From positions 248,001 to 312,000 of the forward strand of contig NZ_JAAAKV010000001.1 of assembly GCF_009905725.1 (NCBI RefSeq): a DNA stretch of 64,000 nucleotides. Reading direction: 5' to 3'. The notes beneath the pieces were generated by a model. The model was not told the DNA's origin. It did not search any database and saw only the letters and a program-made list of their open reading frames with translations. Positions 58,171 to 63,720 of the stretch are shown here, piece by piece (the stretch's first letter is position 1; the number at the start of each line of letters is the position of its first letter). Source of the DNA: Emticicia sp. CRIBPO (GTDB lineage Bacteria > Bacteroidota > Bacteroidia > Cytophagales > Spirosomataceae). The translations under genes were made by a program, and so were the position numbers.

Positions 58171-58671
58171 TTAATGAGGAAGCTTTTCTCTCAGAAATCC
58201 GTAAGTCCAGGTTCCGGCTATGGCACTCAGAAGCGTAACAATGGTGATGGTTGAACCTGTCCCGATTTGTGCAAACAGAGGGCCCGGGCATGCTCCTGTA
58301 AGGGCCCAGCCAAAACCGAATAACAAACCGCCATATATTTGTCCTTTGTTAAATTGCTTGGGGTGTAATTCTATTCTTTCACCGTAAATGGTTTTAATCT
58401 TGAATCGTTTAATCAGCCAGACTGAAATCATTCCGGTCAACACAGCACTTCCGATAATTCCGTACATATGAAAAGACTGCAAACGAAACATTTCCTGGAT
58501 TCGAAACCAACTCACAATCTCCGCCTTTACGAATACGATGCCGAATAAAATTCCGACTGCCAGGTATTTTAAATTATGATGCCATTTGTGTTCCAAACGG
58601 CTTTCATTTACACACATGGCATCCAGCGACCTTACTTCAAAATCTGTTTTTGTACCTGTATATTGCTGCAT
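58171..58671 (-). CDS. YeeE/YedE-family half-transporter (second half)
   Basis: An upstream start at 58815 is in an overlapping frame; ATG at 58671, 4 nt after the previous stop, is preferred, giving 166 aa with four membrane segments. It has GILFGIVFVKAEIVSWFRIQ, a repeat-type loop LHPKQFNKGQIYGGLLFGFG and the conserved WALTGACPGPLFAQIG with a cysteine. YeeE/YedE (thiosulfate permease TsuA-like) proteins occur either as one long protein or as two halves like this pair. It should carry thiosulfate or a similar sulfur species. Confidence 0.85.
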   Translation of the reverse strand: MQQYTGTKTDFEVRSLDAMCVNESRLEHKWHHNLKYLAVGILFGIVFVKAEIVSWFRIQEMFRLQSFHMYGIIGSAVLTGMISVWLIKRFKIKTIYGERIELHPKQFNKGQIYGGLLFGFGWALTGACPGPLFAQIGTGSTITIVTLLSAIAGTWTYGFLREKLPH

Positions 58672-58675
58672 TCGC

Positions 58676-59239
58676 TTAGAGAGAAAAAATAAAAGGTAAA
58701 ATAAGGTTTGCCATGATAAAACCACCTGCCATAAAGCAGGCCGTCGCAACCAGGGAGGGCCATTGCAGGTTGGAGAGCCCCATGATGGCATGACCACTGG
58801 TACAGCCTCCTGCATAACGTGCTCCGAAACCCACTAAAAAACCTCCGGCTATGATCATTAAAAATCCTTTCATGGTCATTAAAGACTGCCAGTTGATGAT
58901 ATCGTCCGGGATCAGGTTGCTGTAATGGGTAATTCCATAACCGGCAAGTTCAGAAGCTAACACAGGATGGATTTCAACCGGATTTGGGTTGCCTAAAAGA
59001 TTCGCAGCGATTGCTCCTCCCAGGAAAATGCCGGATACGAAGACCAGGTTCCAGACTTCTTTTTTCCAATCGTATTTAAAAAAAGGGATGTTGGCAGGTA
59101 GACAAGAAGCACAAATATGCCTCAGGGATGAACTGATACCAAATGACTTATTTCCTAAAATCAGTAGTGCCGGAACCGTCAGTCCGATCATTGGGCCCGC
59201 TATGTACCAGGGCCAGGATTGTCTTATCAACTCAATCAT
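58676..59239 (-). CDS. YeeE/YedE-family half-transporter (first half)
   Basis: A 187-aa membrane protein with four to five hydrophobic segments. The conserved sulfur-relay block is GFGARYAGGCTSGHAIMGLS near residue 140, with the critical cysteine, and TVPALLILGNKSFGISSSLR lies near the N-terminus. In thiosulfate uptake proteins the cysteines of both halves pass the ion across. It is followed after 4 nt by the second half. The start is 2 nt from the end of a 42-codon frame. Confidence 0.88.
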   Translation of the reverse strand: MIELIRQSWPWYIAGPMIGLTVPALLILGNKSFGISSSLRHICASCLPANIPFFKYDWKKEVWNLVFVSGIFLGGAIAANLLGNPNPVEIHPVLASELAGYGITHYSNLIPDDIINWQSLMTMKGFLMIIAGGFLVGFGARYAGGCTSGHAIMGLSNLQWPSLVATACFMAGGFIMANLILPFIFSL

Positions 59240-59944: not shown

Positions 59945-60271
59945 TTATTCTTCGTTTTGTTCCCCTGCTATCTGGCTGACATTGTGCCAGGTACCACCGT
60001 TGATTACATTTTGAAAACCGTTCTTCTCCAGAATGCTCCTGGCCTGGCTGCTCCGGCCGCCACTCATGCAAAAAACAACGATATTTTTCCTGTCCCTGAA
60101 TCTGGACAGCTGGCTTTGAAGCTTATCCAGCGGAATGTTTACCGCTCCCTTTACACTCCCTGCCGAAAATTCCTGCGGGGTTCTGACATCCACCAAAAAA
60201 GCCCCGTTTCTGATGGCTTCAGACAATTGACTGTTGTCTGTTTTACCGAATAATGCTGAAAATATTCCCAT
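59945..60271 (-). CDS. Single-domain rhodanese
   Basis: A longer frame starts at 60319, but ATG at 60271 gives MGIFSALFGKTDNSQL and lies 13 nt past the MBL gene stop. The 108-aa rhodanese has RNGAFLVDVRTPQEFSAGSV, NIPLDKLQSQL and the active site FCMSGGRSSQARSIL with Cys and Arg, near residue 70. It transfers sulfane sulfur. It follows the MBL-rhodanese fusion gene on the same strand, so it is part of that operon. Confidence 0.9.
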   Translation of the reverse strand: MGIFSALFGKTDNSQLSEAIRNGAFLVDVRTPQEFSAGSVKGAVNIPLDKLQSQLSRFRDRKNIVVFCMSGGRSSQARSILEKNGFQNVINGGTWHNVSQIAGEQNEE

Positions 60272-60284
60272 AATAGTGTTTTGT

Positions 60285-61703
60285 TTATGCATTGATACAA
60301 GTAGCCTCCTTACAGGCAATAGTTTCTCCTTTCCCGGCCAGCCACTCTTTCATGCCCCCTGAAAAATTCTTAACATTCTTAAAACCGTTTTTTGCCAGAA
60401 GTGAGCAGGCAACTGCCGACCGGTCACCTGCCTGGCAATGGACGACGACCTGTTTATCTTTGCTGATTTTATCCAGGTTGTCGCCGAGGGTCCCCACAAA
60501 AAGGTTGATGGCTCCGTCTATGTGCCCTGCTTCGTATTCTGTGATCCCACGCACATCTACTACCTGGGCATCATCGTTATTTATATATGTTTTAAACTCT
60601 TCAAGCGAAATGACGTCTGCGGTCTGAAGCTCAATGCCTGATTCATAAACATCAGGGATATAGCCGTACATATTGTCAAGTCCGATACGCATCAGTTTGC
60701 GGGTCAGGTCTTCCATTTGGCTTCCGTCGGCTACAAGGATAAACTGCTCCTGGTAATTCAGCAACCAGCCGCACCAGGTAGCAAAAGAATTGTTGCCCTG
60801 GATGTTGAGACTTCCGGGAATAAACCCTTTGGCAAAATCTGTTTTTTTGCGGGTATCAATTACTTTAATGCCTTTTTCGTAAGCAGAAATAAACTGTTCT
60901 TTATTAAGCTCAGGATGCACAGGCACTTCTGTCAAAAGCGGACGATTCACCTTATTGAGGAGTTTCATCATGGCAAAGTACTTCGGCGGCTCGGGCTGAT
61001 CTGCCAGCAAGTAATCGGTAAACGATTGTTCGTCTTCACCATAACGGAAAGCCCAGTTACGTATTTTTTCATAGCCTACTGTAGAACTGTGGACCGCTCC
61101 GAGGGCTTTCCCACAGGCAGAACCAGCTCCATGGGCTGACCATACCTGGACATATTCAGGTAATGCCGCAAATTTTTTCAAAGACCTGAACATTTGCCTG
61201 GCACCAATTTCTTTTGTTCCGATCAGTCCTGCAGCTTTTTCAAGCAAGTCAGGACGTCCAATGTCGCCGACAAATACAAAGTCGCCCGTGAAAACCATTA
61301 CCGGTTTTTCTGTTGCCGGGTGATCTGTCAGCAGAAAACTGATGCTTTCCGGCGTATGTCCCGGAGTGTGCATTACTGCCAGGGACAGGTTGCCTACTTT
61401 GATAACATCCCCATCTTTCAGCCCGATGTGATCAAACTGGTACTGCCAGTCACTCCCCCCTTCGTCGGATAGATAAACTGATGCACCGGTTACCGCAGCC
61501 AGTTCTCTTGATCCGCAAAGAAAGTCTGCATGAATATGCGTTTCGGTAATATGCGTAATGAGAAGGTTGTTTTGCCTGGCTATATCAAGATACACATCAA
61601 TATCCCTTTGGGCATCTATTACTATTGCCTCGCCCGTGGCCTGACAGCCCACTACATAACTGCCTTGTGCCAGACTTTTATCATAAACGTGTTGAAAAAA
61701 CAT
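60285..61703 (-). CDS. MBL-fold persulfide dioxygenase with rhodanese domains
   Basis: A 472-aa protein. The N-terminal 240 residues are an ETHE1-like MBL domain with THIHADFLCGSRELA near residue 56, HTPGHTPESISFLL and VFTGDFVFVGDIGRPDL. Two rhodanese-like domains follow: the first, with VIDTRKKTDFAKGFIPGSL, lacks the active cysteine (FILVADGSQ), and the second has VVVHCQAGDRSAVACSLLA with the cysteine. The C-terminus ends CKEATCINA. It fits the CstB-type persulfide dioxygenase/transferase that turns glutathione or other persulfides plus oxygen into sulfite and thiosulfate. It heads the second operon of the sulfur block, under a shared promoter element. Confidence 0.93.
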   Translation of the reverse strand: MFFQHVYDKSLAQGSYVVGCQATGEAIVIDAQRDIDVYLDIARQNNLLITHITETHIHADFLCGSRELAAVTGASVYLSDEGGSDWQYQFDHIGLKDGDVIKVGNLSLAVMHTPGHTPESISFLLTDHPATEKPVMVFTGDFVFVGDIGRPDLLEKAAGLIGTKEIGARQMFRSLKKFAALPEYVQVWSAHGAGSACGKALGAVHSSTVGYEKIRNWAFRYGEDEQSFTDYLLADQPEPPKYFAMMKLLNKVNRPLLTEVPVHPELNKEQFISAYEKGIKVIDTRKKTDFAKGFIPGSLNIQGNNSFATWCGWLLNYQEQFILVADGSQMEDLTRKLMRIGLDNMYGYIPDVYESGIELQTADVISLEEFKTYINNDDAQVVDVRGITEYEAGHIDGAINLFVGTLGDNLDKISKDKQVVVHCQAGDRSAVACSLLAKNGFKNVKNFSGGMKEWLAGKGETIACKEATCINA

Positions 61704-61736: not shown

Positions 61737-61787
61737 ATACTGCAAATCTCCTTTAAGATTTTTTCCTGTACAGCTACTTTAGTTACA
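61737..61787 (-). promoter_or_regulatory. Crp/Fnr-type box and promoter of the MBL-rhodanese operon
   Basis: On the minus strand, TGTAACTAAAGTAGCTGTAC (61787-61768), a 21-nt spacer and TTTGCAGTAT (61746-61737). The whole plan is repeated at 63051-63101 with one mismatch in the 20-mer and none in the 10-mer. Confidence 0.75.
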
Positions 61788-62222
61788 TTAGCTGATATCC
61801 GGGCTCAATAATATCTCAGTTTTCATAGAATTGGTCACCAGGCATCCGGCTTTTGCTTTTTCAACAATGCGTTGAGCTTTGTCGCTATCTTTTTCCGCGT
61901 TGATTAACTTTACAACAGGGAACATTTCCGCCTGGGTAAAAAGGTATTTCCCCTCCACCATCTCCAGTTTTGCAACGGTCCTGCAGCTCAGACTTTCTAT
62001 TTCAACTTTAAAATTGTAAGCTATCGCCAGAAATGTGGCCATATAACAGCTGTTGATAGCAGCAACAAATAAATGTTCAGGCGACCAGATATTAGGAACT
62101 CCCTGAGGAAACTCGGGGGGCGTGGCACAGGTTATGGTCTTTTCCAAAACAGGAGATGATAATTCCCCGATCCTTCCTTCTTTCCACTGAATGTTAACTT
62201 CGTAAAAATGTGTCTGTGACAT
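61788..62222 (-). CDS. OsmC-family protein
   Basis: A 144-aa OsmC-like protein. Blocks are YEVNIQWKEGRIGELSSPVL, NIWSPEHLFVAAINSCYMAT, and EKAKAGCLVTNSMKTEILL, with the peroxidatic Cys of the first and resolving Cys of the second. Family members reduce peroxides and, in sulfur operons, may act on persulfides. It is 14 nt after the TauE/SafE gene and its stop abuts the box of the next promoter. It is the second gene of the first operon. Confidence 0.9.
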   Translation of the reverse strand: MSQTHFYEVNIQWKEGRIGELSSPVLEKTITCATPPEFPQGVPNIWSPEHLFVAAINSCYMATFLAIAYNFKVEIESLSCRTVAKLEMVEGKYLFTQAEMFPVVKLINAEKDSDKAQRIVEKAKAGCLVTNSMKTEILLSPDIS

Positions 62223-62236
62223 ATCTGTTTTTATAT

Positions 62237-63034
62237 TTATTGAATAAGCGTTTCCTTAACGATGATATATATACCCATTACGAGCACAAACCAGCCGAAG
62301 GCGGGCCGGAGCTTATCACCGTTTATTTTTCTGGAAAGTACGATACCCAGAAGAATGCCTGTAACAGCGAATCCGGATACTCTTGAGAGAAATAACCAGT
62401 CAATGGCGGTTTCGCCGTTTTCTCCAAAAAAGCCGATTAATGATTTGGCAGCAATGATGACCAGAGACGTTCCTACGGCTTCTTTCATCGGTAACTTGCT
62501 CAAGAGCACCAATGCCGGAATAATCAAAAAACCTCCTCCAGCCCCTACCAGGCCTGTCAGCACCCCTACAAAAGCCCCTTCCACAAGAATAAGCGGGTAG
62601 TTAAACCGCTGCTTCACAGGTTTTTCGTCAGTAGTGGCTTTGTCCTTCTTAATCATACTGTAAGAAGCAGTAATCATCAGTACCGCAAAAAGAAGCATCA
62701 GCAAATTACTTTTGGTAACGATAAACCCGCCGGTACGGAATATTTCGTTAGGTATGGCTGGAACGACATAGGCTCTCGTCAGAAAGACTGCCGCAATGGA
62801 GGGAATGCCGAAAACAATTGCGGTTCTGATATTGACCAGTCCTTTTCTGAAATAGGAGACAGAACCGAAAACACTTGTTATCCCGACAATAAAAAGAGAA
62901 TATGCAGTGGCCAGCACGGCATCTATGCTGAATAAATAAACTAAAACGGGAACGGTCAGGATACTGCCCCCACCGCCGATCAGCCCTAAAGCGATTCCTA
63001 TAAAAATTGAAGCCAGATAACCTGCAATGTCCAT
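62237..63034 (-). CDS. TauE/SafE-family anion exporter
   Basis: A frame starts at 63070, but ATG at 63034 is preferred, giving 265 aa with eight membrane segments. The repeated half motifs are GIALGLIGGGGSILTVPVLV near the N-terminus and GVLTGLVGAGGGFLIIPALV near the middle, then KEAVGTSLVIIAAKSLIGFF. The family exports sulfite, sulfoacetate or related anions. It has its own copy of the sulfur-block promoter, 18-67 nt upstream. With OsmC it forms the first operon. Confidence 0.9.
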   Translation of the reverse strand: MDIAGYLASIFIGIALGLIGGGGSILTVPVLVYLFSIDAVLATAYSLFIVGITSVFGSVSYFRKGLVNIRTAIVFGIPSIAAVFLTRAYVVPAIPNEIFRTGGFIVTKSNLLMLLFAVLMITASYSMIKKDKATTDEKPVKQRFNYPLILVEGAFVGVLTGLVGAGGGFLIIPALVLLSKLPMKEAVGTSLVIIAAKSLIGFFGENGETAIDWLFLSRVSGFAVTGILLGIVLSRKINGDKLRPAFGWFVLVMGIYIIVKETLIQ

Positions 63035-63050
63035 TTGTTTTCTGATGTTG

Positions 63051-63101
63051 ATACTGCAAAAGTGCATCAACTCAAAAAACCGTACAGCTACTTTGGTTAC
63101 A
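63051..63101 (-). promoter_or_regulatory. Crp/Fnr-type box and promoter of the TauE/SafE operon
   Basis: On the minus strand, TGTAACCAAAGTAGCTGTAC (63101-63082), a 21-nt spacer and TTTGCAGTAT (63060-63051). The box includes the last bases of the regulator gene upstream. The box centre lies about 41 nt before the inferred start, the class II activator position. Confidence 0.75.
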
Positions 63102-63720
63102 CAAGGGTAATTTTATTCCTGCCGAGTAAAACAAGACCGCTTTCTTCCAGTTGTTTTAATAACCTCGATACAACTACCCGGGCAGTTCCCAATTCGTTAG
63201 CCAGCTGTTCATGGGTGACCTGAATGGTTTTGGATTGTATGAGTTCGGACTTCTTTTTCATTAAGTTTAATAACCTTTCATCCACCTTTTTAAAGGCAAT
63301 GGCATTTACAATATCGAGCAGCTCTTCAAAACGCTTATGGTATAAACGGAAAATATAGTCCAGCCATTGAGGATATTCTTTAATGAAGAGTGAAACCTTG
63401 TCTACCGGCAAAAAGAGGATTTCAGCATCTTCTTCTATTTCAGCTTTGACCTTGCTGGTTTCATTGTGTAAACCTCCCAAAAAAGACATGATGCAACTTT
63501 CGCCTGCTTTAATGTAATAGAGCAGAATTTCTCTCCCGTCCTCTTCAGTACGGATTACTTTCATAACTCCTTTCGTTACAATAGGAATAGAGCGGATATA
63601 AGCATTCTCATTCAGAATAACACTTCCAGCCTCATACTTTTTCTGCACACTGTATTTGTACAGTTTCTCTACCAATTCAGGTGAGGACTTAAATTCTTCG
63701 ATTTCATCAAGATTATCCAT
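63097..63720 (-). CDS. Crp/Fnr-family transcriptional regulator
   Basis: A 207-aa regulator with a cNMP-binding-type domain (YKYSVQKKYEAGSVILNENA, IRTEEDGREILLYYIKAGES) and a C-terminal winged helix-turn-helix (VTHEQLANELGTARVVVSRL LKQLEES). It has no Fnr-type cysteine cluster at the N-terminus; a single Cys lies in ESCIMSFLGG. It may sense a small molecule or persulfide through that cysteine (inference). It is adjacent to the TauE/SafE and MBL operons, and its likely sites are the shared boxes. Confidence 0.93.
   Translation of the reverse strand: MDNLDEIEEFKSSPELVEKLYKYSVQKKYEAGSVILNENAYIRSIPIVTKGVMKVIRTEEDGREILLYYIKAGESCIMSFLGGLHNETSKVKAEIEEDAEILFLPVDKVSLFIKEYPQWLDYIFRLYHKRFEELLDIVNAIAFKKVDERLLNLMKKKSELIQSKTIQVTHEQLANELGTARVVVSRLLKQLEESGLVLLGRNKITLV

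Follow-up and report, generated by a model that had tools for sequence, protein, structure and literature searches.

How do two neighbouring sulfur gene units come to carry the same upstream layout, and is this layout read by the Crp/Fnr-family regulator encoded beside them? In the window, i.e. the whole stretch of 64,000 nt that was analysed, both units lie on the minus strand. The original prediction had described two paired 20-mers, each followed at an equal distance by an identical 10-mer, and every one of these elements was found in its place. The regulator box of the tauE promoter, TGTAACCAAAGTAGCTGTAC, is a predicted operator at 63082..63101 that reaches into the 3' end of the crp/fnr gene; the box of the MBL-rhodanese promoter, TGTAACTAAAGTAGCTGTAC, likewise a predicted operator, occupies 61768..61787 and begins directly after osmC. 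The boxes differ at 1 position, and each is followed, after a gap of 21 nt, by a copy of TTTGCAGTAT (63051-63060 and 61737-61746, respectively).

The proposed box binder is a Crp/Fnr-family regulator of 207 aa (63097..63720, minus strand; Pfam cNMP_binding and HTH_Crp_2). Its gene ends inside one box, as had been claimed: the stop codon at 63097-63099 falls within 63082-63101 and contributes to the first operator half (GTG TAA C). The first gene after this box encodes a TauE/SafE-family exporter (62237..63034, minus strand; PF01925), and an OsmC-like protein (61788..62222, minus strand; PF02566) is the second gene product of the tauE unit. Following the box at 61768-61787, the first gene codes for a protein with MBL-fold and rhodanese domains (60285..61703, minus strand; PF00753, PF00581), which is persulfide-dioxygenase-like, judged by domain make-up. 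A single-domain rhodanese (59945..60271; Pfam), a YeeE/YedE-type sulfur transport half (58676..59239; PF04143) and a second YeeE/YedE-type half (58171..58815; PF04143, DUF6691), the real start of which is probably further inside the listed ORF, are encoded on the same strand.

A chance repeat was ruled out by searches of the window and the genome, together with shuffled and reversed controls on the loci of relatives. At up to 3 mismatches the 20-mer occurs in the window just at the two known places, and 100 shuffles gave 0 matches. TTTGCAGTAT alone is matched 9 times in the window at up to 1 mismatch, with 5.5 matches expected; because it is not rare by itself, the evidence lies in pairing and spacing. 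The genome-wide box search suggested by the original prediction (6.06 Mb, 97.8% complete) returned only the two window sites at up to 3 mismatches, with 1 match for the reversed control. A looser composite of box and downstream element led to the same 2 genome places at up to 2 mismatches (control, 4).

The layout recurs in other Bacteroidota. When named genomes were scanned with the regulator as query, 340 relatives were obtained, of which the best 80 loci were kept; their proteins are 78-89% identical, and the records include Pedobacter, Sphingobacterium, Flavobacterium, Chryseobacterium, Porphyromonas, Chitinophagaceae and others. At least one composite site lies nearby in 79 of these best 80 of 340 crp loci, giving 150 sites in total, and in 64 of the 80 a box sits at the crp stop, same as in the window. 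On the 1.30 Mb of these 80 loci the composite had 151 matches at up to 3 mismatches, whereas the reversed pattern had 0 and six shuffled boxes had 0, 0, 0, 2, 0 and 0. Since the 80 loci contain near copies (L131/L135/L142/L143 and L130/L136, as seen when 15 chosen loci were compared), a non-redundant set was built: 143 of 161 unique sites were kept for the site logo, those with more than 3 mismatches being dropped, and 110 were left once near copies had been removed. Searching the family for the 20-mer alone, with 3 mismatches allowed, gave matches in 108 of 200 genomes, many of which matched the control as well, so that the result is mostly noise; it was used just to choose loci in two genomes (G073, G023) and to note a third (G049).

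In the 110 non-redundant sites the box follows the consensus TGTRAC-HAAA-GTARC-TGTAY. TTTG stands exactly 21 nt after the box in 96 of these sites and at other offsets in a mean of 0.6 and at most 10, which, together with the shuffle controls, amounts to a fixed distance of class II type between operator and sigma element. When spacers were forced to differ, TTTG remained at offset 21 in 44 of 50. Eleven gaps between box and AnnTTTG were tried on the 80 loci (1.30 Mb); a gap of 18 nt had 133 matches, the two adjacent lengths had 15 and 23, and the rest 0 to 9. Columns 21-38, between box and AnnTTTG, hold less than 0.4 bits each in the 110 sites. In 65 pairs of sites from the same locus the boxes are 87% identical and the AnnTTTG elements 80%, whereas the 18-nt spacers share 30% (27% when shuffled). 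As the boxes are alike and the spacers unrelated within loci, the spacing is kept while the spacer sequence is free.

The second box had been read as a -7 element, and this reading is upheld by the A of AnnTTTG, present in 109 of 110 sites. In the window the -7 elements lie at 63057..63063 for the tauE promoter, overlapping the TTTGCAGTAT copy there, and, by sequence match, at 61743..61749 for the MBL-rhodanese promoter (both minus strand). What relatives keep of the second box is AnnTTTG, together with an A that is frequent at the predicted +1 (box position 50; 87 of 110 sites), not the whole of TTTGCAGTAT. In the accessible part of a flavobacterial start-site map, TAnnTTTG is placed at -12 to -5 (PMC9723704). 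From this position the predicted transcription starts are the A at 63052 (tauE) and the A at 61738 (MBL-rhodanese), both on the minus strand. The ATG of tauE at 63034 is downstream of the predicted +1; a longer ORF starts at 63070, before it. The same published position and the fixed spacing put the centre (8.5) of the core TGTRAC-N4-GTARC at -41.5 from the predicted start, the class II position, in agreement with the original placement of the first box near -41 (PMC9723704, as far as its accessible text goes). Box positions 15-20 (CTGTAC) thereby fall at -35 to -30, and TGTAC at -34 to -30. According to the accessible text of PMC7366714, a -33 element is described for B. fragilis, whereas none was detected in Flavobacterium johnsoniae. 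The leading T of TAnnTTTG is a T in 19 of the 110 sites (G in 47, C in 40, A in 4); because it is mostly missing, the promoter would be weak and probably regulator-dependent. An ECF-type -35/-10 reading of TGTAAC was rejected, as it lies 35 nt away from TTTG and the sites have a primary-sigma -7 element.

With good confidence we take the boxes to be operators of the adjacent Crp/Fnr regulator within two class II activator promoters, through which both sulfur units would be induced together. Binding, activation, the signal, the transcription starts and the extent of the operons are what we infer from sequence. A regulator dimer would sit on TGTRAC-N4-GTARC, centred at -41.5, with one operator per promoter, and the end of the box, TGTAC (-34 to -30), would occupy the place of a -33 element. 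The primary sigma factor would read AnnTTTG, whose TTTG lies 21 nt after the box, at a promoter that is probably weak without the regulator. Sulfide or persulfide may be sensed, perhaps via the invariant Cys76, upon which tauE-osmC and MBL-rhodanese-rhodanese-yeeE would be turned on together.

Repression by the same regulator at the same site is an unlikely alternative, in which the protein would block the -33 region and be released when persulfidated or oxidised, cf. BigR. The overlap of the box with the -33 region speaks for it, the operator position is in itself compatible with repression, and known controls of similar genes differ in sign, FisR activating and BigR repressing in Acinetobacter as far as the accessible text of PMC7315123 goes. 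Yet a class II activator requires just such a fixed spacing (here 21 nt) and a core at -41.5. Repressors usually tolerate variable operator positions. Moreover, the absence of the leading T from 91 of 110 sites fits a promoter that requires help, as expected under activation.

Turning to the candidate activator itself, membership of the Crp/Fnr superfamily is backed by scores above cut-off for PF00027 (42.6 bits) and PF13545 (42.8 bits). The predicted structure (mean pLDDT 76) comprises a sensor domain, a long helix 119-161 and a helix 181-193. The protein is neither CRP proper nor FNR proper: the NCBIfam equivalog for cAMP-binding CRP scores 57.7 bits versus a cut-off of 266, Val182 and TGTAAC boxes are found where CRP proper has Glu181 and TGTGA, the FnrL model reaches 21.7 bits versus 300, and the four Cys residues of a [4Fe-4S] FNR are missing, 97 of 108 orthologue rows having 1 Cys and none more than 3. 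These 108 rows remained of 111 matches after crp translations below 190 aa had been dropped. Cys76 is conserved in 109 of 109 rows, the window copy being counted twice, and is the sole Cys in 97 of 108. It is also found in more distant paralogues, for which the readable rows L048, L052, L053, L057 and L061 were realigned; Cys76 is therefore not specific to the group, a candidate sensor rather than proof of one.

The recognition helix reads T-A-R-V-V-V-S-R, and its V182, close to the predicted helix start at 181, aligns with Glu181 of CRP. In CRP, Glu181 contacts exactly the base pair that corresponds to box base 4, and E. coli CRP mutants with Val181 or Leu181 accept A:T at that base. The combination of V182 and TGTAAC looks like the natural counterpart of the CRP Val181 mutant change. 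For a covariation analysis the set was reduced from 122 to 94 loci by dropping those with two crp genes, those lacking sites, and those with identical protein and sites; L139, with one site of each kind, was counted as not mostly G. All 6 loci with mostly TGTGAC have Ala or Thr at residue 182, the other loci have Val in 85 of 88, and a TGTGAC site occurs in none of the 85 V182 loci, which carry TGTAAC only. Three loci deviate, namely L120 (Thr, TGTAAC), L139 (Thr, one each) and L150 (Ala, both TGTAAC). Fisher's test relates residue 182 to base 4 at 1e-7, a statistic that ignores relatedness. The best tree implies 6 changes of base 4, with a scatter close to that of shuffled labels, and well-supported branches force just 2 base-4 changes, so that a sign test has no power. 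Judged from sequence comparison, this covariation would be the strongest link tying the neighbouring Crp/Fnr protein to the box.

The claim of an imperfect palindrome was confirmed, and a fuller form, TGTAAC-N4-GTTACA, stands before crp in a few relatives. Locus L127 has TGTAAC-AAAA-GTTACA with the same 21-nt spacing; close forms precede crp in L134, L130 and L136, and weaker ones in L128, L129, L132, L140 and L141. Altogether a site upstream of crp was found in 12 of 108 orthologue rows, 9 with the 21-nt spacing, several of these being near copies, which suggests that crp may control itself in some relatives. In the upstream scan no site was found before the window's own crp.

In 395 genomes drawn evenly from the phylum, the composite at up to 2 mismatches gave 32 hits, compared with 11 when the pattern was reversed. 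Fifteen hits have zero mismatches (the window itself contributes 2), and every one of them has a crp orthologue no more than about 2.2 kb away. In 247 genomes of the class, 22 hits were obtained at up to 1 mismatch, 15 of them new, versus 0 for the control; with 79 of 80 named loci bearing a site, phylogenetic comparison thus turned out mostly as the original prediction had it. A crp orthologue (E <=1e-60) is present in 48 of the 395 genomes, and 14 of these have a composite hit at up to 2 mismatches, one of them (G221) on a different contig from the orthologue. No such hit was found in the other 34 of the 48, and diverged orthologues therefore use diverged or weaker sites, or none.

That some other regulator, not linked to the locus, reads the boxes, with the neighbouring crp as a bystander, is very improbable in our judgement. 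It draws on the 7 of 21 hit genomes of the 395-genome sample, with 9 hits, that have no crp orthologue at E <=1e-60, and on sites before sulfur genes in L167, L169, L170, L173 and L189, where a Crp-like gene lies inside the 3-kb locus for L169 only, as for just 1 of the 9 hits. In L169, however, a 35%-identical Crp lies directly before box and tauE, and 8 of the 15 new hits of the class sample have a Crp match within the 3-kb locus. Orthologue and hit, moreover, co-occur (14 of 48 versus 7 of 347 genomes; Fisher 1.5e-9), residue 182 tracks box base 4, and a box precedes crp itself in L127, L134, L130 and L136. The boxes are thus very probably docking sites of the neighbouring Crp/Fnr-type regulator. 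That the two copies reflect a recent local duplication, or a terminator or RNA element at gene ends, and no promoter, is hardly credible: although both boxes sit at the end of the preceding gene and the genome has only two copies, the separated blocks have kept their distance across spacers that show no relation, a wide variety of genes follows the sites in other genomes, and the box is upstream of the predicted start and therefore outside that RNA.

A dedicated sulfur regulon, as postulated, is supported by the genes that the sites serve. By BLAST match, 135 of the 150 sites (best 80 of 340 loci) precede sulfur genes, namely TauE (64), MBL-rhodanese (60, of two types, 30 + 30), OsmC (5), YeeE (4), SQR (1) and rhodanese (1); it is by site position only that these 135 place the regulator on promoters of sulfide-detoxification genes, as is the case for persulfide-sensing regulators such as FisR and BigR. 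Two of the 150 sites precede crp itself, and the other 13 include, by Pfam, sites before peroxiredoxin (L120, L128), thioredoxin-like (L100) and outer-membrane efflux protein (L097) genes. Gene context was examined for 30 of the 32 phylum-sample hits, 2 having no locus; 24 precede sulfur genes (22 by ORF match, plus L165 and L175) and 6 are not clearly before one. Likewise, 12 of the 15 new class-sample hits stand at the head of units that contain MBL-rhodanese, TauE, OsmC or rhodanese matches, the first gene being a small membrane protein in 4 of the 12 units. The remaining new hits stand before genes named by eye as thioredoxin-reductase-like (L215), efflux-protein-like (L225) and small membrane protein (L226).

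Some of these sites point beyond the core genes. Composite sites before a 1-Cys peroxiredoxin gene, a likely further regulon member, occur at L120:2341 (TTTG) and L128:7342 (TTAG); L129, L132 and L140 are near copies of the L128 peroxiredoxin locus. In Flavobacterium antarcticum (L097:9857-15623) a box and -7 element precede the gene for an outer-membrane efflux protein (Pfam), and the ORFs that follow resemble, by eye, a membrane-fusion protein and an RND pump. The first ORF at L102:9815 and at L225 is similar to the L097 efflux gene, by size or eye. These three loci make an efflux branch of the regulon possible. In L171 and L172, both without a close crp orthologue, a 1-mismatch composite site precedes the gene for a DUF2202 protein (Pfam for L171, by eye for L172).

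In L131, L135, L142 and L143 (18621 bases each) an 18.6-kb sulfur locus is 99.95-100% identical, and the records are named Pedobacter nutrimenti, Chitinophagaceae, Filimonas and unclassified Bacteroidetes; recent transfer, mislabelling or contamination may account for this. Between L128 and L132 on the one hand and L129 and L140 on the other, about 9.3-9.8 kb around crp are 96.6-97.0% identical in Pedobacter versus Flavobacterium records, which indicates horizontal transfer of the sulfur locus. Among plasmid records no close crp relative was found; 3 records matched, all below 60% identity. In a genome of the same genus (G073:C1:1022381-1022845) a second crp copy is incomplete, with 2 internal TAA, and its boxes still adjoin, before the TauE and MBL-rhodanese genes.

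A wider picture can be put forward tentatively, and we would not call it the probable one: a phylum-wide, horizontally moving regulon in which one regulator would sense reactive sulfur via Cys76 and carry a natural Glu181-to-Val change, Ala/Thr lineages would have gone to TGTGAC, and the regulon would extend from sulfur enzymes to peroxiredoxins and, in some Flavobacterium, to an RND-type efflux pump. Since the same layout lies beside the same regulator in many Bacteroidota, the sulfur-response circuit is directly testable. The locus offers a candidate regulator for sulfide and persulfide handling with operator detail down to the single base, a natural specificity switch (residue 182 versus base 4), and predicted regulon members across many species. 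It is also a naturally occurring case of a Bacteroidota promoter that is likely to depend on an activator: the spacing is fixed, the -7 element is weakened and the -33 region is covered by a box.

We class the system as a predicted Crp/Fnr regulon that is dedicated to sulfur and whose promoters resemble those of class II. Among the open-access papers listed for a limited set of queries, which slash spellings may escape, no Crp/Fnr sulfur regulator of Bacteroidota was found, nor any other regulator of sulfide and persulfide handling in the phylum; the Porphyromonas orthologue may be among the regulators already studied in P. gingivalis. The nearest solved chain by sequence is a Crp/Fnr family regulator, PDB 3dv8 (E 1.3e-20), which is distant in sequence and has a Cys aligned with Cys76.

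E. coli CRP binds TGTGA-N6-TCACA and acts at class II promoters. The present system resembles CRP class II activation in the Crp/Fnr fold, the recognition-helix arginines (R181, R186), the probable position of the core at -41.5 and the overlap with the -35/-33 region; it differs in having Val in place of Glu181 in the alignment and TGTAAC as operator. With respect to the genes, the closest parallels are the FisR and BigR regulons of Acinetobacter, which, in the accessible text of PMC7315123, comprise the same kinds: persulfide dioxygenase, SQR and TauE under FisR, and YeeE-YedE-PDO2 under BigR. There, however, the activator FisR works with sigma-54 and BigR is from a different protein family, whereas here a Crp/Fnr protein is combined with a primary-sigma promoter of the Bacteroidota. 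Finally, as in the Bacteroidota primary-sigma promoters TAnnTTTG described in the accessible parts of PMC9723704 and PMC7366714, AnnTTTG is correctly spaced relative to the expected +1, where an A is conserved. Unlike the standard promoters of those accounts (PMC9723704, PMC7366714), the sites reported here mostly lack the leading T and bear a 20-nt regulator box at a fixed distance.
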